From positions 1 through 64,000 of IMG/VR virus record IMGVR_UViG_3300022752_000038: a stretch of 64,000 nt of DNA; one strand, 5' to 3'. The translations under genes and the position numbers were made by a program. The DNA comes from a virus. This document shows, piece by piece, positions 4,818-50,993 of this stretch (positions are counted from its first letter, which is position 1; each line of letters opens with the position of its first letter). Under the pieces are notes generated by a model that was not told the origin of the DNA, ran no database searches, and saw nothing but the letters and a program-made list of their open reading frames with translations.

Positions 4818-6395
4818 ATGCAACAAGTACCGTTAAAAACAATAATTGCAGAAGAATATAAACGCTGTGCTACAGATCCTGTACACTTCATGAAAAAATA
4901 CTGCGTTATCCAACATCCTACCAAAGGAAAAATTTATTTTCATTTATATCCATTCCAAGAAGAAACATTACGCAATTTACAAAACAATAGATATTCTATT
5001 ATTTTAAAGTCTAGACAGTTAGGGATATCTACATTATCCGCCGGATTTGCGTTATGGAACATGTTATTCAAGCCAGACTTTAATATATTAGTTATAGCGA
5101 CGACTCAAGATGTAGCTAAAAATTTAGTTACTAAAGTACGTGTTATGCACGAAAATTTGCCGATCTGGTTAAAAGGAAAATCTACCGAAGATAATAAATT
5201 ATCATTGCGATTTAAAAACGGATCGCAAATTAAAGCAGTATCTAGTACGGGCACATCTGGACGATCTGAAGCATTATCACTACTAATTGTTGATGAGGCC
5301 GCATTTATACGTAATATAGATGAACTATGGAATTCGGCTCAACAAACATTGGCAACTGGTGGTGGTTGTATAGCACTTTCAACACCTAATGGTACCGGTA
5401 ATTGGTTTCATCAAGTATGGGTAGATGCCGAATCTGGTGGACAGTTTAAACCAATTAAACTACACTGGACGGTACATCCTGAACGTAACGAGTCGTGGCG
5501 TATTGAACAAACAGAACTACTAGGAGAAAAGGGCGCAGCACAAGAATGTGATTGCGATTTTATAACATCAGGACATACTGTTATTGATGGGCCAATATTG
5601 CAATGGTATGATCAGACATATATCAAAGATCCTTTAGAACGAAGAGGGTTCGACGGTAACTATTGGATATGGGAATATGCTGACTATTCAAAAAATTATG
5701 CAGTAATAGCTGACGTTGCTCGTGGTGATGGTAGTGATTATTCCGCCTTCCATGTTATTGATATAGATAATTTAGTGCAAGTTGCTGAATATCGTGGTAA
5801 AATAGGAACTACTGAATACGGTAATATGTTAATGTCAGTAGCTACAGATTATAACAATGCATTACTAGTAATAGAAAATGCTAACGTAGGATGGGCAGTT
5901 ATACAAGTTGTTATTGACCGTGGATACAGTAACTTGTATTATTCATATAAACAAGATGCTTATATTGACGAAAATATTCATTTAACAAAAGGATATGATT
6001 TAAAAAATAAATCGGATATGGTTCCGGGGTTTTCTACTACATCAAAAACTCGTCCGTTAACTATATCAAAATTAGAAACATATTTACGAGAAAAATCTCC
6101 GGTAATACGTAGTAAACGATTAATTGATGAATTACTAGTGTTTATTTGGAATGGTTCACGTGCTGAAGCACAGCGAGGATATAATGATGACTTAGTTATG
6201 TCGTTTGCAATTGGATTATGGATTCGTGATACTGCACTTCGTTTAAAGCAACAAGGCATGGATTTGTCTCGTAAAACACTTAGTCATTTTAGTAAATCTA
6301 ATAACCAAGGTGTATATACAATTAAATCTACGCAACATGATTCATGGGCATGGAAAACACCCGGCGGTAATGAAAGTTTAACCTGGTTACGCTAA
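4818..6395 (+). CDS. terL: Terminase large subunit (gp17-like)
   Basis: ATP-driven DNA packaging motor and headful nuclease, 525 residues. The ATPase domain has the variant Walker A KSRQLGIST (64-72), Walker B LLIVDEAAF (155-163, with D159 and E160) and the coupling motif ALSTPNGTG near 186-194. The C-terminal RNase H-like nuclease domain starts around VIADVARGDGSDY with D299 as likely metal ligand. Length is slightly below T4 gp17 (610). It precedes the portal as in T4-like head modules. No small terminase gene was identified nearby. Confidence 0.95.
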   Translation: MQQVPLKTIIAEEYKRCATDPVHFMKKYCVIQHPTKGKIYFHLYPFQEETLRNLQNNRYSIILKSRQLGISTLSAGFALWNMLFKPDFNILVIATTQDVAKNLVTKVRVMHENLPIWLKGKSTEDNKLSLRFKNGSQIKAVSSTGTSGRSEALSLLIVDEAAFIRNIDELWNSAQQTLATGGGCIALSTPNGTGNWFHQVWVDAESGGQFKPIKLHWTVHPERNESWRIEQTELLGEKGAAQECDCDFITSGHTVIDGPILQWYDQTYIKDPLERRGFDGNYWIWEYADYSKNYAVIADVARGDGSDYSAFHVIDIDNLVQVAEYRGKIGTTEYGNMLMSVATDYNNALLVIENANVGWAVIQVVIDRGYSNLYYSYKQDAYIDENIHLTKGYDLKNKSDMVPGFSTTSKTRPLTISKLETYLREKSPVIRSKRLIDELLVFIWNGSRAEAQRGYNDDLVMSFAIGLWIRDTALRLKQQGMDLSRKTLSHFSKSNNQGVYTIKSTQHDSWAWKTPGGNESLTWLR

Positions 6396-6402
6396 TATTT
6401 AT
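6395..6402 (+). promoter_or_regulatory. Late-promoter-like ATATTTAT before portal
   Basis: ATATTTATAAATAAAT starts just after the terminase stop; the ATG at 6417 follows 14 bases later without a ribosome site. If transcription starts about five bases after the motif, as at T4 late promoters, the leader would be very short. Confidence 0.45.
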
Positions 6403-6416
6403 AAATAAATACATTC

Positions 6417-8297
6417 ATGGCAGATACTTCATTACAAGCCAGATTAAAAAGGCTATTTTCTACTAACGTAATTGTACGGCGTATTGCAAAAAATCGATTA
6501 AAGGCCGTAGACACGAACAGATTACAATCCGTAGGAGCTCTTTCTAGCAATAGTTATATCGATAGATTTACCGGACTACATCGCGGTCAGTCTGGTATGG
6601 GTACTTATAATCAAACATACAATTTTCATTCTTCTAAATTAGAATTGTTTACTGATTATGAAGCTATGGATATGGATCCAATTATTTCATCGGCATTGGA
6701 TATATACGCAGACGAATCTACAGTAAAAAATTCAGAGGGTGATACATTAAGTATAACTACTACAAATGATGAAGTACGTAAAGTATTGTATAATTTGTTT
6801 TACGATATTTTAAATATTGATTATAATTTATGGCCATGGGTACGTAACGCTTGTAAGTATGGTGATTTCTTTTTACATTTAGATATTGAAGAAGAACTAG
6901 GTATAATTAATGTAACGCCGTTATCAGCATACGAAGTACGTCGTGAAGACGGATATGACCCAGAAAATCCATACGCATATCGTTTTGTAATTGAAGGTCC
7001 TAACGGTACATATGCCAATTATGCTGGCAAGCCTAGTCGCAATGAATTTGAAAGTTTTCAAATAGCACATTTTCGTTTATTATCAGATACTAACTTTTTA
7101 CCGTATGGTAAATCGATGATCGAATCGGCACGTAAGTTGTTCAAGCAAATTACATTAATGGAAGATGCGATGCTTATACAACGTATAATGCGCGCCCCAG
7201 AACGTCGTGTATTTAAGATTGATGTAGGTAATATTCCACCTCATGAAGTAGATACATATATGAATCAAATCATAAGTAAAATGAAAAAGATTCCATATAT
7301 GGATGAACAAACCGGTAACTATAATCTTAAGTTTAATTTACAGAATATGCTTGAAGATTATTATTTGCCAGTACGTGGCGGAGAATCTGGGACATCAATT
7401 GATACTTTAGCTGGATTAGGTAATGAAGGTCAAATTGAAGACGTTGAGTATCTGCGTAACAAACTACATGCAGCACTTAAGGTACCTAAAGCATTTTTAG
7501 GATATGATGAAGGCGTCGAAGGTAAAGCTACACTTGCAGCAGAAGATGTACGGTTTGCCCGTACTATTGAACGTGTACAAAAAATATTTGTGTCTGAATT
7601 AACAAAGATTGCTATTGTACATTTATATGCACAAGGATTTCGTGATGAAGATCTAGTTAGTTTTTCATTAGAACTAAATAATCCATCATTAATTTACGAA
7701 AAACAACAAATCGAATCATTGACAAGTAAAGTCGAATTAGCTACAAAATTACGTGAATCACAAATGTTTTCAGAACAATGGGTCTATGAAAATATATTCG
7801 GTATGAGCGAATATGAATGGAAGTCTCAGCAAGACAATGTAATCGAAGATCTTAAAACCATGTTCCGTCGTAAACAGATTGCAGATGAAGGCAATGATCC
7901 TAAAAAGACAAATATGAGTTTTGGTACACCTCATGACATAGCTTCAATGCACGTAGCTACTAAAGGAGAATTATTACCAGGAATGGAACAAGAGCATGTA
8001 GCAGGGCCAGGACGACCTAAAGATATAAGTACTTGGGGTAAGCATTCTAGCCCACATGGACGAGACCCGTTAGGTATTAAAGACTTGTCAGCTACATTTA
8101 ACGGAAACCCAAAAACAAATCCTTTACAGCATACATATCGGGGAGGCTCACCTTTAAGTACAGAATCTATAGATTCTAAAGAATTGATACGATCATTATC
8201 ACATAAATTTAGCATTAAAAATTCTAACGTTTTACATGAATCATTAAATACGTCACGGGACGCTGGTACAATGTTAGATGAATCTAATTTATTATAA
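6417..8297 (+). CDS. gp20: Portal protein (gp20-like)
   Basis: Dodecameric portal at the capsid vertex through which DNA passes; 626 residues. Recognisable T4-like portal features include the N-terminal region leading to DPIISSALDIYADEST, the LLSDTNFLPYGKSMIE segment, the MRAPERRVFKIDVGN stretch followed by a long helix, the conserved GGESGTSIDTL segment and KVPKAFLGYDEG near the end of the core. The C-terminal about 100 residues are low-complexity and polar. It follows the terminase and precedes prohead genes, as in T4. Position and motifs make this call secure. Confidence 0.93.
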   Translation: MADTSLQARLKRLFSTNVIVRRIAKNRLKAVDTNRLQSVGALSSNSYIDRFTGLHRGQSGMGTYNQTYNFHSSKLELFTDYEAMDMDPIISSALDIYADESTVKNSEGDTLSITTTNDEVRKVLYNLFYDILNIDYNLWPWVRNACKYGDFFLHLDIEEELGIINVTPLSAYEVRREDGYDPENPYAYRFVIEGPNGTYANYAGKPSRNEFESFQIAHFRLLSDTNFLPYGKSMIESARKLFKQITLMEDAMLIQRIMRAPERRVFKIDVGNIPPHEVDTYMNQIISKMKKIPYMDEQTGNYNLKFNLQNMLEDYYLPVRGGESGTSIDTLAGLGNEGQIEDVEYLRNKLHAALKVPKAFLGYDEGVEGKATLAAEDVRFARTIERVQKIFVSELTKIAIVHLYAQGFRDEDLVSFSLELNNPSLIYEKQQIESLTSKVELATKLRESQMFSEQWVYENIFGMSEYEWKSQQDNVIEDLKTMFRRKQIADEGNDPKKTNMSFGTPHDIASMHVATKGELLPGMEQEHVAGPGRPKDISTWGKHSSPHGRDPLGIKDLSATFNGNPKTNPLQHTYRGGSPLSTESIDSKELIRSLSHKFSIKNSNVLHESLNTSRDAGTMLDESNLL

Positions 8298-8317: not shown

Positions 8318-8325
8318 ATATTTAT
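8318..8325 (+). promoter_or_regulatory. Late-promoter-like ATATTTAT
   Basis: ATATTTATTAAAA in the 60-base gap between the portal and the next gene, 32 bases before its ATG. Member of the recurrent late-type motif family; activity inferred. Confidence 0.45.
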
Positions 8326-8357: not shown

Positions 8358-9203
8358 ATGAGTAAAATTAAACATTCAAAAGTAAAAAATACCGGTTTAA
8401 TTTTCGAGTTACTCGTACGTCAAATAGCAGCAGATACAATGAACGGTTCACAGTCAAAAGCTCTACATATAATTAAAAGACATTTTAATAGTAAGAGCGA
8501 ATTAAACAAAGAACTTAAACTATATCGTGCGTTACATGAAGAAAAATTTAACATAGAAAGTAAAGCATCGGCATTTTTAGACGCCGTGATGCGTACTAGA
8601 AAGTCAGTTAATGAAAATACACTTAAGCGTGAAAAGTTTAATCTGATTAAAGATATACGATCATCGTATGATATAGAAGATTTTTTTAATGCGCGTATTA
8701 CTAACTACAAAGTACATGCCAGTATATATAAATTATTCGAATTTGCAGAAGCCGATGATCCTAAAGAGTATGTCAATACTAAATTTAGTTTGTTAGAACA
8801 TATACGTACGTCAATTAAAAAAACAGAACAGACAAAATCATTGTTAGAATCTGAACATAAAGATATTCGTATTTTAGCTTCTAAACTAGTAGTTGATAAG
8901 TTTAATGAAAAATATTCATCACGATTAACGGCAGAACAAAAGTCGTTATTACGTGAATATGTTAATACTGTAACCAACTCTCCGTCATTAAAAGAATATG
9001 TATCTAAGCAAACTAAACAAGTAGCCAAGCGTATTGCTGAATTACAAGATACATTGCCAAGTAAAATTATACGTATTAAATTAACAGAAGTGGTTAATTT
9101 GTTAGATAAATTAAATAAGAAGCATGTTATTGAAGATAAAGATATTTTGACAATGCTTCGTTATTATGAATTGATTGACGAATTAAAAAAAGTTGGGCAA
9201 TAA
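8358..9203 (+). CDS. Conserved prohead-region protein of unknown function
   Basis: A 281-residue, mostly helical, Lys-rich protein beginning MSKIKHSKVKNTGLIFELLV, an N-terminus I associate with uncharacterised proteins of marine T4-like phages at the same site after the portal. It has no membrane segment or catalytic motif. Placement between portal and prohead protease suggests a prohead core or head assembly role, by position only. Confidence 0.7.
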   Translation: MSKIKHSKVKNTGLIFELLVRQIAADTMNGSQSKALHIIKRHFNSKSELNKELKLYRALHEEKFNIESKASAFLDAVMRTRKSVNENTLKREKFNLIKDIRSSYDIEDFFNARITNYKVHASIYKLFEFAEADDPKEYVNTKFSLLEHIRTSIKKTEQTKSLLESEHKDIRILASKLVVDKFNEKYSSRLTAEQKSLLREYVNTVTNSPSLKEYVSKQTKQVAKRIAELQDTLPSKIIRIKLTEVVNLLDKLNKKHVIEDKDILTMLRYYELIDELKKVGQ

Positions 9204-9836
9204 ATGAGCTTATCTAAAGACATAAAAAATAGTATGCGTCGTTTGAACGAGTCTGTTGATCGCGTTTCTGACGAAGAAGCTAAATCTAAATTCAAAGATT
9301 TAAAAGATCGTGATTTAGATAACGATGGCGATTCTGATTCTTCTGATAAGTATTTACATACGCGTTTAAGTAAAGTTGCTAAGATGGATGAGGAAGAACT
9401 TGACGAAATGTCGACAACTGCAGGAGTGCCTGGCTATCAAACTCCGTACGCATTTGGCGATGCTGAAGAAGATACTTATAGCCAAGGTGGCATGAAGCGC
9501 GTTAAAAAAACTAACAAAATATTTAAGCCTATGGAACAGCGTTCGTCGTATAAAAAGATGATGTCAGAAATGTACGGTATTCAAAACGAAGCAGTATCAT
9601 ATCGTCAATATAAAAAAGACGAATCGGCTACTCCATCACAAAAAGTTAACAAAGGTATAATGGAAGTTAACCGTATGTTAGCAGAAATTGAAAAAGTTGT
9701 TCATAACAATCTACGTTTAAAAAATGAAATGGGAGTTGATTCTGCATCATTTTGGAAACAGACATCGGCTCGTATTAATAAAATAAATGAACGTATTGTT
9801 AGAATATCTAATAAATTAAAAGAGCTTTCAAAATAA
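9204..9836 (+). CDS. Prohead-region protein with Ca-binding-like Asp loop
   Basis: A 210-residue acidic protein of unknown function. Residues about 36-49 read DLDNDGDSDSSDKY, an Asp/Asn-rich loop like EF-hand or dockerin calcium loops. A VPGYQTPYAFG stretch follows near residue 76, and the last 70 residues are helical and charged. It begins directly after the upstream stop and ends in a TAATG overlap with a small gene. A head core role is plausible by position. Confidence 0.65.
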   Translation: MSLSKDIKNSMRRLNESVDRVSDEEAKSKFKDLKDRDLDNDGDSDSSDKYLHTRLSKVAKMDEEELDEMSTTAGVPGYQTPYAFGDAEEDTYSQGGMKRVKKTNKIFKPMEQRSSYKKMMSEMYGIQNEAVSYRQYKKDESATPSQKVNKGIMEVNRMLAEIEKVVHNNLRLKNEMGVDSASFWKQTSARINKINERIVRISNKLKELSK

Positions 9837-9991
9837 TGGTACCTAATAGAACGTGGCAACAATTTGTTAACGCCAAGGAAAATACATCGTTGACATTGAA
9901 CGAAGCTAAGCGCAAATATGCTGATGAGCGTAAGCGTTGGCAAATGGAACAGGATTTTATTAATTCTGGTTTATTTATGAAAGGATTATAA
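9836..9991 (+). CDS. Small basic protein, 51 aa
   Basis: A 51-residue ORF (MVPNRTWQQFVNAKEN at the start, ending SGLFMKGL), joined by TAATG overlaps to the genes on both sides, which strongly suggests it is translated. It is charged and helical, with an N-terminal WQQFVNAKENTSLTLNEAKR segment like the short leaders of prohead core proteins. In T4 a small core gene (67/68) also sits between portal and protease genes; this may be the counterpart, by position only. Confidence 0.6.
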   Translation: MVPNRTWQQFVNAKENTSLTLNEAKRKYADERKRWQMEQDFINSGLFMKGL

Positions 9992-10596
9992 TGGATAAAC
10001 AATTACTTATAGATTATACAGTGTTCGAAGTAACACCTCAGCAAATCAATGAGTCATTGACTAAAAATAATGGCCGTTTAATTGTAACGGGTGTGTTGCA
10101 ACGCGCTGAAGCTAAAAACCATAATGGACGAGTATATCCAATGGAAACGTTAATGCGCGAAGCTAAAAAATATAACGAAACATATATACGTGAAAGACGT
10201 GCATTAGGAGAATTAGATCATCCAGATTCATCTGTTGTTAACTTAAACAACGTAAGTCATAACGTTTTAGAAATGGCATTTCGTGGTAAAGACCTTGTCG
10301 GTACTGTAGAAGTACTTCCTACACCGGCTGGTAATATACTTAAGGCATTGTTCCAGTCAGGAATTAAATTAGGTATATCATCGCGAGGTTTAGGATCTGT
10401 TAAAGAGGTAATGCGCGAAGCTGGTAGCGCAATGGAAGTACAACCAGACTTTGAACTGATAGCATTTGATTTTGTTAGTAATCCTTCAACACATGGAGCT
10501 TTTTTATCTCCGGTTAATGAATCAATTAACAACAATGTCAATACTAAATATAATAACATCAATCGTTTAATTTCAGAAATAATAAGGGAGTTTTAG
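9991..10596 (+). CDS. gp21: Prohead maturation protease (gp21-like)
   Basis: Serine protease that trims scaffold and capsid proteins in the prohead, 201 residues, close to T4 gp21 (212). The conserved GELDHP motif contains catalytic H77 and the GISSRGLG motif contains the serine at 130-131, as in the U9/S80 herpes-protease-like fold. AAAGGAT lies before the ATG, which overlaps the previous stop. Substrates by analogy are the scaffold at 12168 and capsid at 13053, cut after (L/I)xE. Confidence 0.92.
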   Translation: MDKQLLIDYTVFEVTPQQINESLTKNNGRLIVTGVLQRAEAKNHNGRVYPMETLMREAKKYNETYIRERRALGELDHPDSSVVNLNNVSHNVLEMAFRGKDLVGTVEVLPTPAGNILKALFQSGIKLGISSRGLGSVKEVMREAGSAMEVQPDFELIAFDFVSNPSTHGAFLSPVNESINNNVNTKYNNINRLISEIIREF

Positions 10597-10598
10597 TC

Positions 10599-10865
10599 AT
10601 GGCACTTATTGATTTAGCAAACACATCGCTTTATGGACCTAACAATCCAGTAGGCGCAAAAGGCACTGGGTTTACAACTGGACCTAATGCAGAACCATTA
10701 ACGAACATGTCATTAGGTAATCCAGTAACCGGAAAAGGCACTTTTGATAGTTTAACTGACGCTGCAGGAGCTAGTTTGTTCGGCCCTACTAATCCAGTTG
10801 GAGCAAAAGGTAATGGTTCAGTTATTGACCCGTTCGGTAATATTCCGGCCGAATTATCATTCTAA
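10599..10865 (+). CDS. Small Gly/Pro-rich repeat protein
   Basis: An 88-residue protein built from two near-identical blocks, SLYGPNNPVGAKGTG (about residues 10-24) and SLFGPTNPVGAKGNG (about 61-75), with a weaker SLGNPVTGKGTFDSL between them. It begins MALIDLANTSLYG, similar to the MALIDLKSDLSWYG start of the baseplate protein at 32362. AAGGGAG precedes the ATG. Low-complexity, probably extended; a minor virion protein is plausible, function unknown. Confidence 0.6.
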   Translation: MALIDLANTSLYGPNNPVGAKGTGFTTGPNAEPLTNMSLGNPVTGKGTFDSLTDAAGASLFGPTNPVGAKGNGSVIDPFGNIPAELSF

Positions 10866-10884
10866 TTAATTAGGAACAATTCGT

Positions 10885-11253
10885 ATGAAATATTCTGATA
10901 TATACAAACGAATGTTTGCGGGACGTCCAAGGTCTAACGATTCGACTTTATTGTCAGAAGGCACATGGATGGCTGGAGTAACGACTGGCAAACCTACTAA
11001 AAAGCCTATGTCAGAAGCAGATACTAGTACAGATCGTCGTAATGAATTTCAAGCACAACTAAATGAAATTATGAGTATGTTGCAAGATCTAACCGATGAA
11101 TTTGGTTATGAATTAGAAATGACAGCCGATACCGAAAGTAGTGTGCCTGAATATCGACAGTGGTTAACACAGTTAGGTCGTTATTCGGAAGCCGCTGAAA
11201 AAAATCTTAAAGGCGTTGGTAAAATTATAAAGCAAGCTTACGGAGGGTTATAA
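10885..11253 (+). CDS. Unknown head-region protein
   Basis: A 122-residue protein of unknown function, with a polar N-terminal 45 residues and a helical acidic C-terminal part. AGGAAC precedes the ATG, and its stop overlaps the next start (TAATG). It belongs to the run of small genes between protease and scaffold; no motif recognised. Confidence 0.6.
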   Translation: MKYSDIYKRMFAGRPRSNDSTLLSEGTWMAGVTTGKPTKKPMSEADTSTDRRNEFQAQLNEIMSMLQDLTDEFGYELEMTADTESSVPEYRQWLTQLGRYSEAAEKNLKGVGKIIKQAYGGL

Positions 11254-11666
11254 TGTCTAAACATTGGGAAAATAAATTGTTAAAAAAGTCTCTAAGCGAA
11301 AAGTATATACATGAAGAAGATGATATGCCTGAGATGACTAAAGAAGATCGTAAAGCTTTTTTAGAAGCTGTAGCTAATTATCATCAACTAGGCGAAATGA
11401 TTTATCGTGCTAATACGCTTAAAGAAGTTGCTAGTACATTAAGCAATATAGTTGAAATGGCAGAAAATGTAACATTACAAGAATCAGAACATTGGTTTGA
11501 TAATGTAACAGTATCACGTCATATGAAACAACTTCAAGAGGCATATAAAACATTTGAAAAAACTGCGACAGAAATGTCCGGTATGCAACAACGTTTAGAA
11601 GCTGCGTATGAGGATATTGGTACTGTACTTAACAAGTATTACAAAGTAAACGAATCGTTAAAATAA
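11253..11666 (+). CDS. Unknown helical head-region protein
   Basis: A 137-residue, acidic, wholly helical protein with coiled-coil tendency in the C-terminal half. GGAGGG directly upstream is one of the strongest ribosome sites in the window. It is the last gene before the bS21 unit with its own promoter. Function unknown. Confidence 0.6.
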   Translation: MSKHWENKLLKKSLSEKYIHEEDDMPEMTKEDRKAFLEAVANYHQLGEMIYRANTLKEVASTLSNIVEMAENVTLQESEHWFDNVTVSRHMKQLQEAYKTFEKTATEMSGMQQRLEAAYEDIGTVLNKYYKVNESLK

Positions 11667-11697
11667 TTTGTTTTTGTAAAAGAATGTTATTATATTG
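11667..11697 (+). promoter_or_regulatory. Bacteroidota-like promoter for bS21
   Basis: TTTG at 11667-11670, 20 bases, then TATATTG at 11691-11697. This matches the TTTG / TAnnTTTG spacing known for Bacteroidota housekeeping promoters. The expected transcript would start near 11703, giving a leader of about 14 bases without a Shine-Dalgarno sequence before the ATG at 11717. Activity inferred. Confidence 0.5.
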
Positions 11698-11716
11698 TAA
11701 AGTAAATAAATAAGTT

Positions 11717-11974
11717 ATGAATTATATAAACAAAAAACAAAAACAGTTTGAAAGTATTATTCCAGGAACGCCTACCGGCGTGCGTGTAGTACGTAACAAT
11801 GACAGGTCAGACATTTCATTTGCATTACGTAAATGGAAAAAAATGCTAAAGGATAGTGGTGTAATAGAAGAGTTAAAGGCTCGCACTACTTACGAAAAGC
11901 CTACAGCAAAACGTCATCGTCAACGCGAACGTAGTAAATATTTAGCACAACGGGCTACTGAAAGATATTCATAA
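11717..11974 (+). CDS. rpsU: Ribosomal protein bS21 homologue
   Basis: An 85-residue basic protein matching bacterial small-subunit protein bS21. After an about 28-residue N-terminal extension, the core reads FALRKWKKMLKDSGVIEELK, then the hallmark YEKPTAKRHRQRER and a basic tail. Host bS21 is usually 58-70 residues and binds the platform near the anti-Shine-Dalgarno end of 16S rRNA. The gene is a separate unit: a promoter-like element lies upstream and a terminator hairpin follows 18 bases after its stop. It has no Shine-Dalgarno sequence, unlike the genes on both sides. Phage bS21 genes are known in other phages; ribosome incorporation here is inferred. Confidence 0.85.
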   Translation: MNYINKKQKQFESIIPGTPTGVRVVRNNDRSDISFALRKWKKMLKDSGVIEELKARTTYEKPTAKRHRQRERSKYLAQRATERYS

Positions 11975-11992
11975 ATCAAACTAACAACTATG

Positions 11993-12019
11993 AAAAGGTG
12001 TCTATACGGCACCTTTTTT
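11993..12019 (+). terminator. Rho-independent terminator after bS21
   Basis: AAAAGGTG (11993-12000), nine-base loop, then CACCTTTT (12010-12017) running into six T residues. It closes the bS21 unit. Confidence 0.8.
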
Positions 12020-12167: not shown

Positions 12168-13034
12168 ATGAAAGACATTTTGAAAGAGGCAATCGCCGAT
12201 GCTAAAGCTGTACGTGAAACAGCCATGGCGAGTGCTAAGATTGCATTGGAAGAAGCTTTTACTCCTAGACTACAAAGTATGATTTCGGCACGTTTAGCAG
12301 AAGAAGCTGACGAAGAAGAAGTGACTACCGAAGAGGAAGAAGTAGAAGTAACAGAAGAAGGCGAAGAAGGAACTGATGGTACTCCAGATCCAGGTCCAGC
12401 TATCGAAGAAGAAGATGATATGGAAATGGAAGAAGATTTAGATCTTGAATCTATTATCCGTGAATTGGAAGGCGATATGGAAGAACCAATGGAAGAGGAA
12501 GAAGACGCTACGGTATCAGTAGAAACAGAACCTAGCGAACCTGTAGAGGAAGAGGAAGAAATCAACATCGATGAAATTATCCGTGCTTTACGTGAAGAAG
12601 ATGATATGGATGACGATGACGATGATGATGACGCTCCTGCACCGGCAGTTTCAGAAGGCGACGATACTGACAAAGAACTTAAAGAAGCTTACAACGTAAT
12701 TCGTTACATGAAAGCCAAATTAAACGAAGTAAACCTTCTCAATGCAAAATTGTTATTTTCTAACAAATTATTTAGAAACTATTCATTAACAGAAGCTCAG
12801 AAAATGAAAGTTATTGAAAACTTTGATCGTGCAGCATCAATGCGCGAAGTTAAGTTAGTATATAGCACATTATGTGAGTCGCTGAAAAATGTTGTAGCTA
12901 CTAAGAAAAAACAAACCATTAAAGAAAGCTATGCTTCAAAGCCAGCTGGCAGATCAACCGCTCCGAAAAAAGAAATTCTTAGCGAAGGATTTGAATTAGC
13001 TGCTCGTTGGAAGAAATTAGCTAATCTTAAGTAA
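12168..13034 (+). CDS. gp22: Prohead scaffold core protein (gp22-like)
   Basis: Internal scaffold around which the capsid assembles, 288 residues, placed immediately before the capsid gene as in T4. The N-terminal helix is followed by a very acidic region (about residues 45-170, including a run of eight Asp), then a helical C-terminal third ending RWKKLANLK. T4 gp22 is likewise acidic and helical (269 residues) and degraded by gp21. The C-terminal RWxKLAN motif recurs in the ParB-like protein at 49106. Assignment rests on position, composition and length. Confidence 0.8.
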   Translation: MKDILKEAIADAKAVRETAMASAKIALEEAFTPRLQSMISARLAEEADEEEVTTEEEEVEVTEEGEEGTDGTPDPGPAIEEEDDMEMEEDLDLESIIRELEGDMEEPMEEEEDATVSVETEPSEPVEEEEEINIDEIIRALREEDDMDDDDDDDDAPAPAVSEGDDTDKELKEAYNVIRYMKAKLNEVNLLNAKLLFSNKLFRNYSLTEAQKMKVIENFDRAASMREVKLVYSTLCESLKNVVATKKKQTIKESYASKPAGRSTAPKKEILSEGFELAARWKKLANLK

Positions 13035-13052: not shown

Positions 13053-14756
13053 ATGAATTTAAATTCTTTATTACCTCATGAGGCACAATCAACTCAACAT
13101 GCCAAAGCTATTGCACTTGAAAAGAAGTGGCAGAAGACCGGCTTGTTGGAAGGTATTGCCAATGAGAACGACCGTCGCGGAATGGCGGTTCTATTAGAAA
13201 ACCAAGCCAAGCAATTGGTAACTGAAGCTAACCAAACCGGTACTGACTCAAATGCTGAGCAGTGGGCTGGTGTAGCTCTTCCATTAGTACGTCGTATCTT
13301 TGCTGAAATTGCTGCAAAAGATTTCGTAAGTGTTCAACCAATGAATTTGCCATCTGGTCTAGTATTCTATTTGGACTTCAAATATGGTACTGCACAAGGT
13401 ACACAAGTAGGTGGTAGCACTGGTAACAATGACTTCTTAACAGGTCAAGGACGCACATCACAAACCGACTCTGTATTCGGTGTAACTGATGCAGATCGTG
13501 GTACTAGCGCTCCTAGCGAAGGTCTTTATGGTGCAGGTCGTTTTGGTTATACAATCAATGACGTAACTGCATCTATCACTGTAGGTGGAGCAACTGGTTC
13601 GGCTGCTGTAGCTAATGGTGCTTTCACAGCTGGCGCTACTACATTGACACAAGCACAGTTTGATAAATTTACTAATTACAATGGCGAATTTTCTGCTTCT
13701 ATTGTAAATGCTGGTTTATCTGCTGGTATGTTTGTATTACAAGTAGCAACTAGCTCACTTTCTGGATTTGATTCTAAAGGTATTCGTGCATTTAACTTAG
13801 TAGGTGCTGGTACTATGTATCCAGAATTTACAAGAATTAATCCGGCTACTAAAGGTCATATCCAGTTCTTGGTAAATACTTCAGGTGCCGGTGCTACTGC
13901 AACTGTTATTTATCATAAGCAACCTACCGATTCGACTCGTGGTGATTTTGAAGATGCATCAAGCACATTCGCTAACAACCAGACCAATTCAACTACACTT
14001 AACATTCCAGAAATCAATTTGGAAATGCGTAGTGAAGCTATTGTTGCTAAGACACGTAAATTAAAAGCAATTTGGTCGCCTGAATTCGCGCAAGACCTTA
14101 ATGCTTATCATAGCATTGATGCCGAAGCTGAATTGACTAGCATGTTGTCAGAATACATTTCGCAAGAAATTGATCTGGAAATCTTAGACATGTTGATACA
14201 AAATGCTCAAACAACTGAGTATTGGTCTGCACGTATTGGATATGTTTATGATGCCGCTACAAACGCATTTATAGATGGTACTACTGTCGGTCAAGCTTAT
14301 AACCAAGGTACATGGTTCCAAACTCTTGGTACTAAAATCCAAAAAGTAAGCAATAAGATTCATCAGTTAACTATGCGTGGTGGAGCAAACTTCTTAGTAT
14401 GTTCTCCAACTGTAGCAACTATCCTTGAGTCTATTCCAGGATATGCTGCTGATACAGATGGTGATAAAATGCAGTTTGCAATGGGCGTTCAGAAAATTGG
14501 TGCGATTAATAGCCGTTACCAAGTATACAAAAATCCATATATGACTGAGAATGTGATTCTTATGGGATATCGTGGTAGCCAGTTCCTGGAAACAGGTGCT
14601 GTATATGCTCCATATGTTCCATTGATCATGACGCCATTAGTGTACGATCCTGATAACTTCACTCCACGTAAGGGTGTAATGACTCGTTACGCTAAGAAGA
14701 TGGTTCGTCCTGAATTCTATGGTAAAGTATTTGTTAGTGGATTAAATTTATTATAA
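13053..14756 (+). CDS. gp23: Major capsid protein (gp23-like)
   Basis: Hexamer-forming shell protein, 567 residues, HK97 fold (T4 gp23 is 521). Recognisable T4-type stretches are GVALPLVRRIFAEIAAKDFVSVQPM, the long Ala/Gly/Thr-rich insertion region, LEMRSEAIVAKTRKLKAIWS with EFAQDL, the E-loop region and the C-terminal KGVMTRYAKKMVRPEFYG. The first about 58 residues are charged and helical, and LVTE58|A59 is a possible gp21 cut site, near the E65 site of T4. AAAGGGGAT is a strong ribosome site and a terminator follows, consistent with high expression. Confidence 0.95.
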   Translation: MNLNSLLPHEAQSTQHAKAIALEKKWQKTGLLEGIANENDRRGMAVLLENQAKQLVTEANQTGTDSNAEQWAGVALPLVRRIFAEIAAKDFVSVQPMNLPSGLVFYLDFKYGTAQGTQVGGSTGNNDFLTGQGRTSQTDSVFGVTDADRGTSAPSEGLYGAGRFGYTINDVTASITVGGATGSAAVANGAFTAGATTLTQAQFDKFTNYNGEFSASIVNAGLSAGMFVLQVATSSLSGFDSKGIRAFNLVGAGTMYPEFTRINPATKGHIQFLVNTSGAGATATVIYHKQPTDSTRGDFEDASSTFANNQTNSTTLNIPEINLEMRSEAIVAKTRKLKAIWSPEFAQDLNAYHSIDAEAELTSMLSEYISQEIDLEILDMLIQNAQTTEYWSARIGYVYDAATNAFIDGTTVGQAYNQGTWFQTLGTKIQKVSNKIHQLTMRGGANFLVCSPTVATILESIPGYAADTDGDKMQFAMGVQKIGAINSRYQVYKNPYMTENVILMGYRGSQFLETGAVYAPYVPLIMTPLVYDPDNFTPRKGVMTRYAKKMVRPEFYGKVFVSGLNLL

Positions 14757-21431: not shown

Positions 21432-23291
21432 ATGGCAGAAAAAATTGTTTCGCCCGGTGTGTTTACCAATGAAGTTGACTTGTCAGCGTTACCCGCAGGT
21501 ATTGCGGCTATCGGTGCAGCAATAATTGGGCCTACACAGCGCGGACCAGCAAATATTCCGACATTTGTAACAAGTTATTCAGATTTCGTATCTAAATTCG
21601 GAAGTGTTTTCACTTCGGGTTCTGGTACACAAGAGAGCACATATAAATATCTAACCAACTACATGGTACAAGAGTATATGAAGTATGCTGATACATGCTT
21701 AGTAACGCGTGTAATGGCGGGTAATTATGCATATGCTTATAGTAACGTGATTAGTGCAGACAGTGCGAGCAATGGAACAGCACATGCTCCATCATTTAAA
21801 TTAACTGTGTTGTCAGCAGGGGCTTTAGATAATTCCGGACAAAGCCAAGCATCTGTAAGCGGTAGTGGTTTATCTGCAGACGAAACTACAGGTCAATTAT
21901 TAAAGTCTGGTTCAGAAAACAATTTGCGTTGGGAAGTAGCTAATGTAAGTAACAGCAAGGGTACATTTACATTGTTAATTCGTCGTGGTGATGACATTAC
22001 TAACCGTAAAATTATTCTTGAACAGTATAATAATTTGACGTTAGATCCGGCATCTCCTAACTATATTGCTAAAAAAATTGGTGATGTAGCTTATACATTA
22101 AAAGATTCTGGTCTAGACCAGCCATATTTCCAAGTATCTGGATCATATCCTAATCGTTCAAAGTATGTACGTGTTGAAGTACTTAAAAATACATTGAATT
22201 GGTTTGATGCTAACGGATCACGTAGATTAGACGCTTTTACTGGTAGTTTACCTCAGGCTGTATCCGGTACATTCTCAGGTGGTTCGGATGGAGCTGTAGC
22301 ACATCCTAAAAACTTCTTTGAAAACATTTTACGTGGTGGCTCAACACTTGATTCAACAGGATATGCTATTGAGAACAATACGCAAGGATTTAATTTGCAA
22401 GCTACTCAGTCATCTGAACCTGGAGTAAAGCATTTTGCTCGTCCATATTTAGACGCTATCAAATTGTTAAAGAACCAAGATGACTATGATTTTAATTTAT
22501 TAGTTCTTCCTGGCTTGACAAATGATAATACCGAAGCTAAATCAATTTTAACACAGGCACAATTAATGATTGAAAGCCGTGGAGATGCGTTTTTGGTAAC
22601 TGACCCTGTAGTTTACGGAAGCACTTTAGGTGATGTAGTAGATGAAGCAGATACACGTAACAGTAACTATGTGTCAATGTATTGGCCATGGGTATTAGTA
22701 GGTGATGGTGATATGGGACGTAATGTATGGGTTCCGGCTAGTACAGTTGTACCTAGTGTATATGCATTTAATGACCGAGTAGCTGCCCCATGGTTTGCTC
22801 CTGCCGGTTTGAATCGAGGCGGAATTGAAGCTGCAGTACGTACTGAACGCAAACTTAACCAAGCTAATCGTGATACATTGTATGATGCTAGTGTTAATCC
22901 TATTACAAGCTTCCCTAATCAAGGTGTAGTTGTTTATGGACAAAAGACACTTCAAAAGAAAGCATCTGCATTGGATCGTGTTAACGTTCGTCGTTTGTTG
23001 ATTGCTGCTAAGAAGTTTGTTGCTTCTACTAGTAAGTATCTGTTATTCGAAAATAATACTGCAGTAACAAGAAACCGTTTCTTAAGTATTGTTAATCCAT
23101 ATTTCGATAGCGTACAACAGCGTCAAGGTTTATATGCATTCAAAGTGGTAATGGATGACAAATTAAATACTCCGGAAGTCATTGACCGTAATGAATTACG
23201 CGGAGCTATTTATTTACAGCCAGCCAAGACTGCCGAATTCATTATTATTGACTTTAACATCCTGCCAACTGGTGCTGCTTTCCCAGAATAG
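21432..23291 (+). CDS. gp18: Tail sheath protein (gp18-like)
   Basis: Contractile sheath subunit, 619 residues (T4 gp18 is 659). It opens with KIVSPGVFTNEVDLSALPAG, the usual sheath N-terminus with SPGV, followed by IGPTQRGP. The C-terminal conserved domain contains NRGGIEAAVRTERKLNQANRD, INPI-like NPITSFPNQGVVVYGQKTL and RVNVRRLLIAAKKF. AGGAGA is a strong ribosome site. It precedes the tube gene as in T4, and shows this is a myophage. Confidence 0.96.
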   Translation: MAEKIVSPGVFTNEVDLSALPAGIAAIGAAIIGPTQRGPANIPTFVTSYSDFVSKFGSVFTSGSGTQESTYKYLTNYMVQEYMKYADTCLVTRVMAGNYAYAYSNVISADSASNGTAHAPSFKLTVLSAGALDNSGQSQASVSGSGLSADETTGQLLKSGSENNLRWEVANVSNSKGTFTLLIRRGDDITNRKIILEQYNNLTLDPASPNYIAKKIGDVAYTLKDSGLDQPYFQVSGSYPNRSKYVRVEVLKNTLNWFDANGSRRLDAFTGSLPQAVSGTFSGGSDGAVAHPKNFFENILRGGSTLDSTGYAIENNTQGFNLQATQSSEPGVKHFARPYLDAIKLLKNQDDYDFNLLVLPGLTNDNTEAKSILTQAQLMIESRGDAFLVTDPVVYGSTLGDVVDEADTRNSNYVSMYWPWVLVGDGDMGRNVWVPASTVVPSVYAFNDRVAAPWFAPAGLNRGGIEAAVRTERKLNQANRDTLYDASVNPITSFPNQGVVVYGQKTLQKKASALDRVNVRRLLIAAKKFVASTSKYLLFENNTAVTRNRFLSIVNPYFDSVQQRQGLYAFKVVMDDKLNTPEVIDRNELRGAIYLQPAKTAEFIIIDFNILPTGAAFPE

Positions 23292-25090: not shown

Positions 25091-25300
25091 ATGTCTAAAA
25101 TACGCGTCGATGAAGGATTAATGAAATATATTGTTAAATTATTCTTTCCTCAACTAGAACGTGAAATTGTACAAGATCCTGAAGTTCAACAAATTCTACG
25201 TAATATTTCTGAATCGGCTGCTCGGATTAACGCTAGTTGTGATAGATTAGAAGAACTTACCGGTAAAGATTTATCAGACTTAAAATTTAAGCGTAAGTAA
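25091..25300 (+). CDS. Small helical protein upstream of tape measure
   Basis: A 69-residue charged helical protein (LIQ-free, Glu/Lys/Arg-rich) with a late-type motif and AAAGGA upstream. Its stop overlaps the tape-measure start (TAATG), implying coupled synthesis. Could be a chaperone or capping factor for the tape measure; no family recognised. Confidence 0.6.
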   Translation: MSKIRVDEGLMKYIVKLFFPQLEREIVQDPEVQQILRNISESAARINASCDRLEELTGKDLSDLKFKRK

Positions 25301-28300
25301 TGGCTACTGGACCAAAAAAGCAAAAATATACTAGCGATGATTTTGATAGTGCTTCTTTTGATAAAGCCTTAACTAAAGTAGTACAGTCCTCGCTTAAAAA
25401 AGCTTTTGGAAAAGGTAGTATCGGAGCAACGCCTGTATCAGATGCGTTGCAGAGAGATATTACTTCGTCCGAAACGTTAGCTGATACTTTAAAATCTCTC
25501 GCACAGCATGAACAGGAACGACAAATCAATGCTAACCGTACTGCTGATATTCAACATAAAGCTGCAATTGAAGGTATTTCGTTTCGTGAAGCTGAATTAC
25601 GATATAATGTAGAAGAACGTAAGTCTCAATTAATACAAGAATCTCGAGAAAAGGCACGGAACGGAATAATAGATAGTCGAAGTAAAGAAATACGTTCTGA
25701 GTTAGCATCACTTAATTCAAGTCTTGGAATATTAAGTGAAACAATACAGCAAGAAGAAACACGTGCTAATTTAGTTAAACAGATAAATAACGAGTATCAG
25801 TCTGATCAAATCAAAAATCAATTAGCTGAACTACGTGATGTAAATGCGGAACATGCAATATCTGGTGAACGTATAGGATTTGCTACTGGAGCATTTGAAA
25901 AACTAAAACAGCAATCTATTATAACTCGCGAAGAACAAATAGAGCTTAATGATATTTTACTGAACAACCGTGATGCTAGCGGTATGATCAAAGATATTAA
26001 TGAAAAAATATTAGAAGCACAACTATCTGGTAATGAAAAATTAAAAGAATCGTTATCAATAATAAAAGAAACATTAAGTATTGATCAAGAACGAGAAAAA
26101 TTAATACAAAAAATATCAAAGCAGTCTGATGGTTATCTAAAAACGATGACTAGTCTTAGTGATAAAATTCCAATTATCGGGGGAAGTATTAGCAAGTATC
26201 TCGAAGGCGGAATGAAGCGCTATAATGAAGCTCTAGCCGACAGTATAATAAAACAAAAAGTTGGAGAACAGGGCTTACAACATCAAGGAAAGGCAGCTAC
26301 TGCGTTAGGTTCTAAATTAAAAGCCGCATGGTCATCATTTGGTCCGGGCGGTATGGTGTTAATTGGTATAGGATTGTTAGCCGCAGGACTCGCAGCTGCA
26401 TATAACTTTGTCAAAGATTTTGATAAGTCGATTACAGATACTGCGCAATCAATGGGTACTACTAAACAAGCTGCCCAAGAATTGTCCATGGCCGCTAATG
26501 CAACTACATTAAATCAAAAAGAGCATTTAGCTGCCGTAAAAGAATTAAATACTGCATACGGAGGTATGAATGCCGTTAATGCAAAAAACGTAAATCAGTT
26601 TACGGACCAATTAAAAACTATTAACGATTTAAAGATTGGATTTGGATTAACTAGCGATGAAGTGACGGGTTTAGCCGCATCAGCTAGATCAATGGGAACA
26701 GATGTAACAGTACTTACAGCAAACGTACTGTCGACAGTAGAGGCACTAGAATCACAAGGTAATTATCTAGTTAATCAAGCAGCCGTAATGAAAGACATTG
26801 GAAAACTAGGAAAGGCCAATGCACGTATGTTTGGAAACAATGCTAAGGCATTAGTTAAAGCAGCAGTAGCCGCTAACATGTTAGGCACTAACTTAGGATC
26901 AATGCTAAAAACTGCAGAAGATAGTTTAGACATTGAACAAAGTTTAACTAAAGAAGCTCTGTTCCAAGTCTTTACGGGTGGAAAAAATGTGTCATTGCAT
27001 GAAGATATGATGAAGATGCGCGAAGCCTATGTCAATAACGACATGGAATCCGTAATGCAGGCACAAGGCAATATTATAGCAAATTCATACGATAGTATTA
27101 TAGATGCTTCAGGTAAAGCAAATCAATTCGCATTGAAAAAATATGCAGATATGATGGGGCAAACTACTGATGAAGCAATGACTCAATTGGAATCATATGA
27201 TCTAGCCAAAAGCTTAGGATTTGATATACAACAGATCATGAGTGGCGAAATTTCTGTAGATATGATGGAAGGAAAGATGGCGGATATAAAAGATCCTGCA
27301 CAAAAAGCCCGTATCGAAGAAATGATCGCTAAACGTAAATCAGTAGCGTTGTCAGAGGAATTTGATAGATCTTTACAAAAATTAAAAGAATCTTTAACGC
27401 CATTAATGGGCCAAGTAGCTCCTGCTATAGAAAGTATTGTACATTTTGGGGCAGCATTATCAGCTGGTATAACTAAAGTAAGTAGTTTTGTAGGCGGTAT
27501 TGGTGGAATGGCAGTAGCGTTAGGTGCATTAGTTCTTGGATTTATAGGATTTAGAAAATTGTTTGATACGTTTCGTAGTTCATCACTAGGTGAAACGTTG
27601 TTAGGTAAAACTAAAGAAACCAAACAAGCTGAAGCAGTTAAAACGGGAATGAAATCAGCACTTGATTATTATTCCGCTTCTCCGTCGTTGGCCGTTACAA
27701 TTGTAGCTAACAAAATAAAAGGCGGCGGCGGTGATGGAGAAAGTGGTAGTGCTAACGGAAAATCTCCAGATACTAAAGAGATGAGTAAGAAAGGCGCTAG
27801 CGAATCATTTAAAGATAACATGAAAAATATCGCCGAAGGTTTTAAAGCCATGGGCGAATCTGGAGTAGGTAAAGGTATATTAAATACAGCACTTGCCGGT
27901 CCAGCACTGTTATTGGCAATACCTGCAATTCCGTTTATATTGTTTATGGGCAAATCTAAATTAGATAGCTTAGAAAATAATTTTTACAATTTAGCATCAG
28001 GTTTAACTGCAATGGGCGAAGCAGGTCGTAGCGGTATATTAAATACAGCACTTGCAGGCCCAGCGTTGTTACTAGGAATGTTAGGAATACCGATGTTAAC
28101 GTTTATGGGTAAAATTAAGTTAGGTAACTTATTTACTAATTTTTCACAGTTGGCTAGTGGTTTAACGGCTATGAGTGCTGTACCTAAAAGTGGTATATTA
28201 AATATTGGATTATTTGGTATAGCAGCTATACCATCATTACTTAGTATACCATTCTTAACTTTTATGGGACTAGTGCCGTTAGCACAGTTAGCTGTTAATT

Positions 28301-31300
28301 TTACTAGTTTAGGAACAGGATTGTCTGCGTTAAGTGCTGGTATTGGCGGAGTTGGAGTATTAGCAGCTTTTGCTATTGCTGCAATACTTGCAATTCCATC
28401 TTTGATATTTTTAGGTGGTATAGCTTTACTAGGAGAAGTAGCAGCCGCTGGATTAATAGCGTTAGGAGGTGGGTTAGAAGCATTAGGTGCTGTTGCAGCA
28501 ACTGGACTACCATTTTTAGCAGTTGGATTGATAGCAGCATTAGGGGCATCAATGATTCCATTTGCGGCTGCGTTATATATAGCAACACCTGCCATTGAAG
28601 CACTTGGAAAGGTTGTTATAGGAGTATTTTCAGCAATGCCGGCAATTATTACGGCCGTAGCAAATGGCTTTGTTACAATATTTGACACACTTGCAGAAAA
28701 TTGGCAAGTATTAATACCAGTAGGTATAGGATTAACTGCCTTAGCCGTAGGAGTCGGAGTATTAGGCGCAGCTTCATTGTTAGCAGCCCCAGGATTATTA
28801 GTATTAACCGGCATGATGTATATGGCCGCTCCTGCTATTGCAGCTGTCTCTGCTTCGATGACTGAACTTATACCTGTGTTTGAAGCGTTAGCAACTATTG
28901 ATTCCAAACAAATAATAGCTTTAGGTAAAGGCTTAGTAGTGTTAGGAGCTGGACTTTTAGCATTAACTGCTGGCTCTGTAGTAAATGGTATAGCATCATT
29001 TTTTGGAGCTGGCCCTGTAGATATGTTAAAAGATTTGGCATCAATTGATGGGCAAGGCGTTAACATAACTGCACAAGCTATAACATCATTGGCATCAGCA
29101 TTACAAGGATTTTCATCAATTGATACAACTAGTATTGGTAATGGATTAGGTTCAATAGCTGCCGGATTTTTAGCTTTAAGTGCTGGATCTGTAATAAACG
29201 GCATTGCTGATTTCTTTGGCGCTGGGCCGGTAGATCTTTTAAAGGATTTAACATCCGTCGACGGCAAATCGATTGAAAGTATAGCAAAAGGAATTGATGT
29301 ACTAGTAAAAAGTATTGATCAATTTACATCTATAGATTTGCAAGCCATGGAAGATACTATAGGTAAAGTAGAAGAACTAAGCGATATTAACAGTAGTGGT
29401 ATCGGAAGTCTTTTAAGTTCGATTGGCTCTGGAATTGGCGGAGCTATGAGTAGTATAGTGACGGGTGTACAATCAGTTGCTGCACCAATAACGGATGCAT
29501 TGTCCGGAGCATTTGATTCGGCGTATAATGAAATATCGGGTTGGTTTGGATTTTCGCCTAGTGAAATAGGAAACAGTATATTAAACGGTATACAATCAGT
29601 ATCTCCAGACATCTCCTCAAATCTTACACAGCCATTTGATAATGCCGCATCTAAATTAAATGCTGGCCCTTTAAAGGATTTTGGAGACAATGTTGCTGGT
29701 ATTGACACGACTAAATTAAAAGAACAGTTAGGTCAATTTAGTGGAGTATTGTCCGGAATTGATTTAGATGCTATAACAAAGTTTGCAGATTTAGCTGAAA
29801 AAGATTTAGGTAAAGCGGCACGAAATATAGTTAACGGTATTAATTCTTTAGTTACAATTAATACCGGAATTAATTTTGAGGGACTATACAATACATTCGA
29901 TACTTTAGGAGAAGCTTTTAATGAGTTGGGTATAGATGACTTAATTAAGTTTCTATCTATAGATAAAGATTTAAAAACATTTGGCGCTAATATACAAGCA
30001 GGATTTTCTTCGATTTCCTCAATGCCAGAATACGATTTCGGAAATTTTGAAAATACATTAGAATCGTTAAATGAAGCCTTAGCAGAATCAGATCTATCTG
30101 ACTTAGACCAATTTACAAAAATTAATTTTAGTTCTTTAGCTACAATAGCCACAAATCTTAAAGCTGGATTACAAGGATTAGTTGATGTTGGTAATATGGA
30201 AGATATGGGCACTGGCTTTATGTCTGGTATGCTAGGAACTAATGGATTAGGAGGATTGGAAAGTATATTTGAAGGTCTTGCAAATGCAATAGATGAATTA
30301 GATTTAACCGAATTAGATCAGTTTACTAAACTTAATTTTAGTGGTCTATCAACAATGGCTCAAAGCTTAAGTGCTGGATTAGAAGAACTAAATGCTCTAG
30401 GAAATCGTGACATGGGTACAATGTTTTCTGGAATGTTCGGCGAAGGCGGTTTGGGCGGATTGGAAAGTATATTTGAAGGATTATCTGATGCTGTAGATGA
30501 ATTGGATATGGATGCGCTAGGTAAATTTACTACACTTAACGTTAGTGGTTTATCAACAACAGCAAATAATATCAAACAAGGTATATCAGATTTAGTTAGT
30601 GTTGCTGATTCTGCCGGACAAATTAGTATATTACAAAATGTGTTTACTACATTAACAAGTGTATTTAATTCTATAGATCCAAATATATTTAATAGACTTG
30701 GACAACTTGATGTAACTGGCATAACGATTTTTGCTAATAATTTTAAAAATGCGTTAATGCAATTATCTACATTAAGTAGTATAGATTTGTCGGGAGTTGT
30801 AGCATTAAGTACTACGATTACTAAATTAACAGATCTAATATCTAAAATTAATTTTACCGAAGTATTTAAGCCAATTATTGATTTAAAGGTAGATCCTATT
30901 ATACAACAAATAGATAGATTGGTTGAAGCTTTTGCCAAGTTAACTAAATTACAATCAGTACAAGCAACGGTTAATGTACAAACAATTGCAGATAAAGCTG
31001 CTGAAGTTAAAACTACTAATACTGTACAAGCCCCAATGCCTGAACCAGCAAAAGCCTTTGCTGAAGGTGGATATACCGGCCCCGGCAGTAAATATGAACC
31101 TGCAGGTGTAGTACACGCCGGAGAATACGTTGTTAATGCAGAACAAACTAAACAATGGGCGCCGTTATTAGAAATGATTAATAGTGGTGACGCTACTATA
31201 GGAGCTATAAGTGCACAAGTAAATTATCCTCCTGTACCTGCATATGGTAGTGGCGATCGTATGCTCGATATGGAATCCATGGCTAGATTAGTTGACGTGC

Positions 31301-50170: not shown

Positions 50171-50815
50171 ATGCCAGCATTAAATGCTAATCTGCCATAC
50201 ATAGAATGTTTTGTTAGAGAAAAGTATATTAAACCTGACGGTACTGGAATTATGCCAGGTTATATTTTCGGCGTTAAAGCGATGATTAATCGTCCGATGC
50301 ATTTTCATTTCCTTTCTAATATTGGAGCTATCTTTTGGCAGTTACCTATAAGTGCATTTTGTCATAAAGAAGATTACGATACATTGTCAGATATCGAACA
50401 AACTCGTTTACAATTGTTACAGACATGGGATTGTCAGTCTAATAGTATTGCTGTAACTACATTTTCTTTTTTACAAAATAAACGAGTTGATGTACATTGT
50501 CGTGATAACCGTTGGCGTACCGGTAGATATATTTGTACTATAGATGATTATGATGGCGATCCTAACGAACTCAATGTCGGTTATGCCAATGACCAGGATA
50601 GCAAATGTTATCAGTTTATACAATTAGATGACGGTAATTATTGCGTACAACCAAACAATTTGTTACGTTGGCACAACGCTGATTACATTGTTCCATATGA
50701 TATTAACAATGTTCCTAAACTTAAACTCAATAAAGATCGTATGTACAGTGAAGATATTGATCGTACATATGGAAACTCAGCATATTATTTTTATCAACAA
50801 AAAGATCAAAAATAA
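50171..50815 (+). CDS. Unknown protein
   Basis: A 214-residue protein rich in aromatic residues, Asn and Asp, mostly beta. It includes FLSNIGAIFWQLPISAFCHK and an acidic YTIDDYDGDPNELNVGY-like region. No family recognised. It begins just after the DUF5522-like stop, without a ribosome site, and ends one base before a promoter-like element. Confidence 0.6.
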   Translation: MPALNANLPYIECFVREKYIKPDGTGIMPGYIFGVKAMINRPMHFHFLSNIGAIFWQLPISAFCHKEDYDTLSDIEQTRLQLLQTWDCQSNSIAVTTFSFLQNKRVDVHCRDNRWRTGRYICTIDDYDGDPNELNVGYANDQDSKCYQFIQLDDGNYCVQPNNLLRWHNADYIVPYDINNVPKLKLNKDRMYSEDIDRTYGNSAYYFYQQKDQK

Positions 50816-50849
50816 TTTGGATTCGTTGAAAGAAGTACTTATATTAAAG
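50816..50849 (+). promoter_or_regulatory. Bacteroidota-like promoter for small-gene/que block
   Basis: TTTG at 50816-50819, 20 bases, TATATT at 50840-50845 then AAAG. Its TTTGGATTCG is identical to the 37853 promoter. The ATG at 50865 follows with a leader of roughly 14 bases and no ribosome site. Confidence 0.58.
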
Positions 50850-50864
50850 TAATAATAAAAATAT

Positions 50865-50993
50865 ATGAGTAAGACCAAAGAGTTATTTATGCAGATCCGA
50901 GAACAAGAATTCTACGGATGGGACGCTATCGATGAAAGCTATTTTTACGAACAGTACAAAAAAAGTTTAGAAAATTTGAGCGTTTGCAAATAA
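50865..50993 (+). CDS. Small acidic protein, 42 aa
   Basis: A 42-residue ORF (MSKTKELFMQIREQEFYGWD at its start) directly downstream of a promoter-like element. Charged and aromatic, probably helical. Small phage proteins of this kind first in an early transcript often bind host factors, but nothing specific can be said. Confidence 0.45.
   Translation: MSKTKELFMQIREQEFYGWDAIDESYFYEQYKKSLENLSVCK

Follow-up and report, generated by a model that had tools for sequence, protein, structure and literature searches.

The window, a stretch of 64,000 nucleotides (bases 1-64000 of a 95,041-base uncultivated virus record, labelled G000), encodes a known kind of protein in a new form: an N-terminally extended ribosomal protein bS21, carried as an autonomous unit without a Shine-Dalgarno (SD) site in a genome with SD-led late genes. 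Among related phages, SD-led head genes were found together with bS21 of the extended type, and the comparative evidence for the predicted tie between bS21 and SD use is strong and, as far as sequence can speak, supports a late translation switch. On balance, the phage bS21 encoded at the locus probably switches translation in a host from the Bacteroidota.

Genome context and head genes

All 101 genes called in the window are on the + strand, as are all features described below, and recognisable among them are genes for TerL, portal, prohead protease, capsid, sheath, tube, DNA polymerase and clamp loader. The virus is classed on its sequence as a T4-superfamily myovirus, and its nearest named relatives are Mel-JY01 (TerL 57%, capsid 60%) and Flavobacterium phage vB_FspM_immuto (genus Immutovirus; TerL 57%, capsid 56%). 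The latter resembles it in head gene order and promoter geometry but differs in being without bS21 and in having no SD sites above background.

A late-promoter-like motif, TATTTATA, is present at window positions 8319, 14825, 18290, 21389, 23883 and 25068 and also in relatives, where it lies 5' of late genes across the whole clade (bS21-carrying records have 129 copies, with 17 expected). It is the reverse complement of the T4 late box TATAAATA, for which the same motif scan gave no enrichment. The first copy (TATTTAT, 8319-8325, a motif enriched in all clades) stands before the head genes at 8358-11666. These include an AAAGGA-led prohead protease gene (9991-10596; phrog_207, E=5.6e-52; SD -9.4 kcal/mol) and three small head-region genes (10599-11666), each with an SD (AAGGGAG, TAGGAA and CGGAGGG). 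Further downstream are an acidic scaffold-like head gene led by AAAAGGA (12168-13034; SD -6.2 kcal/mol), which is assigned by composition and its capsid-gene neighbour and had no family match, the major capsid gene led by AAAGGGGAT (13053-14756; phrog_138, E=7.6e-77; SD -8.3 kcal/mol) and a TTAGGAG-led tail sheath gene (21432-23291; phrog_23, E=1.2e-73) behind the TATTTAT at 21389. Most SD sites of the genome are AAAGGA-like, at about -6 kcal/mol. Of the 28 structural genes, 17 are preceded by AGGA, GGAG or GAGG, and of the 72 other genes likewise 17 (p=0.0008); among the 21 replication genes, 6 have an SD. The clear SD sites originally noted on the head genes are not shared by TerL (from 4818) and portal (from 6417), which together span 4818-8297 and are SD-less exceptions with energies of -1.8 and +2.0.

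The bS21 unit

The original prediction had described a bS21 homologue with an N-terminal extension, its own promoter-like element, no SD and its own terminator, and each of these features was confirmed. The gene (11717-11974, 85 aa) sits inside the head module, between the prohead protease and capsid genes, and its product matched PF01165 in a profile search (40.9 bits vs a curated cut-off of 27, E=1.7e-11) and phrog_21469, ribosomal protein S21, while tblastn against named phages gave weak matches only. Residues 27-77 align without gaps with residues 6-56 of Flavobacterium johnsoniae bS21 (PDB 7JIL), placing Y75 at Tyr54, so that the aromatic residue of Bacteroidia-type bS21 at position 54 (F. 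johnsoniae numbering) is present. The short N-terminus beginning at the core, also typical of the Bacteroidia type, is replaced by about 20-21 additional residues (residues 1-21, MNYINKKQKQFESIIPGTPTG; 11717-11779), which host bS21 does not have and which are conserved among relatives within the clade. A structure model was of low confidence (pLDDT 68, pTM 0.36, about 50 over the first 20 residues), so nothing is drawn from it beyond an extension that is probably flexible and mostly unordered.

The promoter-like element consists of a -33-like TTTG (11667-11670; ATTTG is conserved in the clade alignment), an N20 spacer and a -7-like TATATTG (11691-11697), with TATATT present in 19 of 21 clade leaders. 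The main promoter box of F. psychrophilum reads TAnnTTTG, and promoters of a second class have TAnnTTGY (motif SM5) at the same position (PMC9723704); read as TATATTGT, the -7-like element of the bS21 promoter fits this second class. The pattern TTG-N20-TATATT, which was chosen after seeing the bS21 leaders and then found to be sharply peaked in immuto, occurs in 12/21 bS21 leaders of the clade vs 2/113 other gapped leaders (p=5.5e-10), and the late motif TATTTAT shows the reverse distribution (1/21 vs 49/113). Ten aligned leaders of relatives have in common ATTTG, then TATATT(A/G), then AAGTT(AT)-ATG, and the 20-nt spacing is exactly that of immuto. A sigma70 promoter scan of the locus gave nothing convincing.

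The remaining leader (11698-11716) ends in AAGTT-ATG, has no stable fold and pairs with the anti-SD at only -0.8 kcal/mol; with a transcription start expected a few bases past the -7 box, the mRNA leader would be about a dozen bases long. No SD was found at the bS21 start in any of the 21 clade genes vs 182 of 299 neighbouring genes (p=8e-9), nor at any of 41 autonomous loci, where 57% of neighbours have one. AGTTAT or AAGTT immediately 5' of the ATG recurs at bS21 genes of the G000 clade. Downstream, a strong intrinsic terminator hairpin, AAAAGGUGUC...GGCACCUUUUUU (11992-12018), was detected by folding (-13.4 kcal/mol, z=-5.6) but was not picked up by a stricter terminator scan, and a gap 3' of bS21 (median 179 nt) recurs in the clade. 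About 20 nt 5' of the bS21 start, the loci L113, L117, L119, L122 and L140 have a T-rich tract resembling a terminator, which suggests attenuation or insulation.

SD use across related phages

Genes were called without SD information, and the 20 bases before each start were paired with UCACCUCCUUUCU and compared with shuffles of the same bases; an SD was counted as AGGA, GGAG or GAGG upstream of the start, with GGGG counted as well in the capsid-gene comparison. Relatives of the capsid gene were taken from IMG/VR, 80 loci being kept out of at least 599 stretches per scan, and gave 155 scorable loci. Strong SD enrichment was seen in G000, Mel-JY01 and seven other bS21 records, while SD sites in immuto were at background (7% vs 6%). 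Among the 155 scorable loci listed, 79 with bS21 near the capsid gene differed from 76 without it both in mean excess energy (-1.88 vs -0.42 kcal/mol) and in SD fraction (0.48 vs 0.13, naive p 8e-21). Whole-record searches found bS21 elsewhere in only one of 39 records labelled bS21-less. This locus, L304 (record G033, position 211157), belongs to a 252-kb relative with bS21 distant from the capsid gene, and its SD-rich head genes (0.37) are an apparent exception that is resolved by the remote bS21 in the record.

After this correction and the separation of short proteins, the 155 loci listed comprised 69 with extended bS21, 11 with a short host-like bS21 and 75 without, G+C being similar between the groups. 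SDs preceded 52%, 24% and 12% of head-region genes, respectively, the last value being near background, so that the predicted association of late-gene SD use with phage bS21 holds across the family for the extended type (52% vs 12%). The major capsid gene itself had an SD in 97% of extended, 27% of short and 17% of bS21-less loci, the last again near background (97% vs 17%, p=6e-25, a naive value for the loci listed that ignores kinship). A bS21 core beginning at residue 22 or later goes together with SD-led head genes, and the N-terminal extension correlated with SD fraction (Spearman 0.48, not tree-corrected). The N-extended type was adopted as the correlate after seeing the data, and 'any phage bS21' was dropped. 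As an outside check, 40-kb stretches were scored from four huge phages that belong to other lineages and have a short host-like bS21; the SD fractions were low, 0.03-0.06 in three and 0.21 in one.

Independent changes on the capsid tree

One caution (INDEPENDENCE) applies to these comparisons, namely that the loci are related to each other and naive p-values are consequently inflated. On a capsid tree of 83 rows bS21 changes at least four times, three of these changes being forced by well-supported branches, and on a tree of 152 rows it changes seven times among the loci listed. Overall there were 7-8 independent changes of bS21, which the capsid SD followed in about six and never in the opposite direction. 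In independent pairs, the capsid SD accompanied extended bS21 in 6.3 of 8, with 0 opposite and 1.7 tied (median sign-test p 0.03), and SD use over the whole module gave a similar tree-aware result. The direction is thus consistent and the events are few, 7-8 changes amounting to modest formal significance. Most of the exceptions come from a single bS21-less clade, L136 to L295. Many members of this clade have an SD at the capsid gene and on few other genes, and this capsid SD is perhaps a relic of a lost bS21.

SD contrast within genomes

In seven long records of autonomous-bS21 genomes, SDs were found on 84/140 structural genes (60%) vs 16/68 replication genes (24%, p=8e-7), which is the difference between gene classes that had been predicted. 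In these genomes 58% of genes directly behind TATTTAT had an SD vs 16% of other gapped genes (p=7e-14), and the corresponding values in bS21-less phages were 3% vs 6.5%. T4, analysed by the same procedure, had SDs on about 60% of genes on both strands with no contrast between structural and replication genes, and the contrast is therefore not a property of T4-like phages in general. The Mel-JY01 clade has an embedded bS21, preceded by an SD in 16 of 18 loci, and its SD use extends over the whole genome, with structural and replication genes alike. A switch must be translatable before it has switched, so that an SD-less bS21 gene, as in the autonomous type, is what a switch needs.

Promoters and the host

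The proposal of a bacteroidote host gains from a promoter geometry held in common with a Flavobacterium phage, although the host of the phage itself is only inferred. In immuto, TTG-N20-TAnnTT has 29 sites at spacer 20 vs 0-2 at neighbouring spacings. The pattern is also enriched in the bS21-less G026, a relative of immuto, and in the longer extended-bS21 records G009, G010, G012, G013, G014, Mel-JY01 and G011; no such spacing peak was present in T4. In G000 the bS21 promoter is the sole clear gapped TTG-N20 site, and the clade mates G009 and G010 are enriched. TATAAT promoters are nearly absent from clades with and without bS21. An A-profile at -3/-6/-12/-13 gave no decisive pointer to the host, and a variable-spacing TAnnTTTG pattern was dropped after failing on the positive control immuto. 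From these counts, the promoter type appears common to phages with and without bS21 and Bacteroidota-like, with which classes near Bacteroidia that have an accessible anti-SD would also be compatible.

The last point matters for an alternative that we regard as unlikely but worth weighing, in which the extended-bS21 phages infect hosts with an accessible anti-SD (e.g. non-Bacteroidia classes), the SDs are ordinary and bS21 serves another purpose. The hosts of these phages are indeed assigned by inference, Mel-JY01 is labelled a Microcystis phage and its clade uses SDs genome-wide, and Rhodothermus phage RM378 has some SD use without bS21. Such a change of host is weakened, however, by the promoters, since TTG-N20-TAnnTT with almost no TATAAT is common to both groups and immuto, and Mel-JY01 has ten TTG-N20-TAnnTTTG sites. 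It also predicts SDs on replication genes, as in T4, against the 24% vs 60% seen in autonomous-type genomes, and is opposed by the SD-less bS21 gene itself and by the Tyr or Phe, a Bacteroidia feature, retained at position 54 in the G000 clade. The ten promoter sites of Mel-JY01 (PP395634.1, L068-L077) are of a form typical of Bacteroidota, with whose phages it groups, and its Microcystis label appears doubtful on this basis.

A possible late translation switch

In the proposed switch, the bS21 mRNA would be transcribed from the host-type promoter and, being without an SD, could therefore be translated by unmodified, SD-blind host ribosomes. The extended phage bS21 would then displace host bS21 on 30S subunits, and ribosomes carrying it would use, or at least tolerate, SD-led messages, presumably through a gain of SD recognition. 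The beneficiaries, presumably late in infection, would be the structural genes, which have SD sites and are transcribed from the late promoter TATTTATA. Tyr54 is kept in the clade, so that the extension or another surface, rather than loss of Tyr54, would have to act; the extension or an adjoining divergent surface may alter the hold on the 16S tail or the mRNA. Phage clades with Arg or Lys at position 54 do exist, and the idea of Tyr54 loss fits those but not the G000 clade; as a general mechanism it was ruled out, the SD fraction being 0.56 for the Tyr type vs 0.44 for the Arg/Lys type. The wider reading, that a virus ribosomal protein builds a specialised ribosome which reads a signal ignored by the host and thereby defines an SD-led late programme, protein and signal having been gained or lost together several times, has in our estimation an even chance of being correct.

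Several observations count against a switch. The retained aromatic Y75 would predict occlusion of the anti-SD and not its exposure, and the SD sites of G000 (about -6 kcal/mol) are much weaker than the < -13 kcal/mol of Bacteroidota rpsU. TerL and portal are SD-less while 6 of 21 replication genes have an SD, the Mel-JY01 clade combines an SD-led bS21 with no contrast between gene classes, and capsid SDs occur in the clade L136 to L295.

Host mimicry or dosage, in which phage bS21 keeps ribosomes complete and SD-blind and the late SDs are unrelated, would agree with the retention of Tyr54 in the G000 clade, with the essentiality of bS21 in F. johnsoniae (PMC9976891) and with the low SD use that accompanies short host-like phage bS21. 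It leaves the joint gain and loss of extended bS21 and SD-led capsid genes unexplained and is considered improbable. That the SD sites reflect a demand for high late expression, with bS21 as incidental cargo of the head locus, would suit their being most frequent in structural genes; it is very improbable given the capsids of bS21-less relatives, which are expected to be equally late and abundant and are mostly without an SD (17% vs 97% among the loci listed). An action of bS21 off the ribosome or packaged in the virion, which Chen et al. 2022 brought up as a possibility, would suit a gene among head genes but not the conserved bS21 core, and its likelihood is very slight.

If the proposed switch is true, SD recognition in SD-blind ribosomes would be turned on during infection by a natural factor, the extended phage bS21, and this would be a clean natural case of specialised ribosomes governing gene expression. 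The question bears on the purpose of phage bS21 and on why Bacteroidota retain an intact but hardly used anti-SD.

Relation to published systems

The general idea of the original prediction is largely in print already. Among the ribosomal proteins encoded by phages, bS21 is the most frequent (PMC6375957), and Chen et al. 2022 described it for jumbo phages of Bacteroidetes, located in the head region and with late transcription, and proposed that it substitutes into ribosomes and favours phage transcripts (PMC9723584). McNutt et al. 2023 reported a gain of SD use by F. johnsoniae ribosomes that have no bS21 or carry Y54A, and took up phage bS21 in the discussion only (PMC9976891). No SD analysis of phage genes was found in the searched text of Chen et al. 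(PMC9723584), and no paper on SD use in bS21 phages was found in the open-access literature. A location of bS21 near head genes and a late role are thus published, and the part that appears new is the SD test across phages with and without bS21. The co-variation makes the published speculation a concrete, falsifiable prediction with natural controls, namely sister phages with and without bS21, one and the same capsid gene that has an SD in some and none in others, and the extended, short host-like and absent states.

The jumbo phages of Chen et al. are alike in having a single bS21 among TerL, portal, prohead protease and capsid genes, inferred Bacteroidota hosts, an aromatic residue 54 and a proposed late-stage role. 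They differ in having complete genomes of 293-331 kb and in the orientation of bS21, which runs against the head genes there but shares their strand in the window and the related loci listed; unlike them, the present gene has its own host-type promoter and terminator, an N-terminal extension and a place in a T4-like clade with Immutovirus. The autoregulation of F. johnsoniae rpsU (PMC9976891) is similar in that the state of bS21 decides whether the anti-SD pairs with the mRNA. That gene, however, is preceded by a very strong SD and translated by ribosomes that lack bS21, whereas the phage gene is without an SD, its -0.8 kcal/mol lying far from the < -13 kcal/mol of autoregulated rpsU. The bS21 of Pelagibacter phage HTVC008M (Mizuno et al. 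2019, PMC6375957) enters E. coli 70S ribosomes, but its host is alphaproteobacterial, those ribosomes were nearly inactive in vitro and an SD contrast was outside the scope of that study.

Other genes of the window

Three further features of the window were observed. A 2349-aa ORF 3' of the baseplate-hub gene (25300-32349) probably encodes a large tail or baseplate protein. A cluster of QueD, QueE and GTP cyclohydrolase genes (50171-53923) suggests a 7-deazaguanine modification pathway, and a phage GroEL of 539 aa is encoded at 62092-63711 (phrog_5725, E=1.6e-174).
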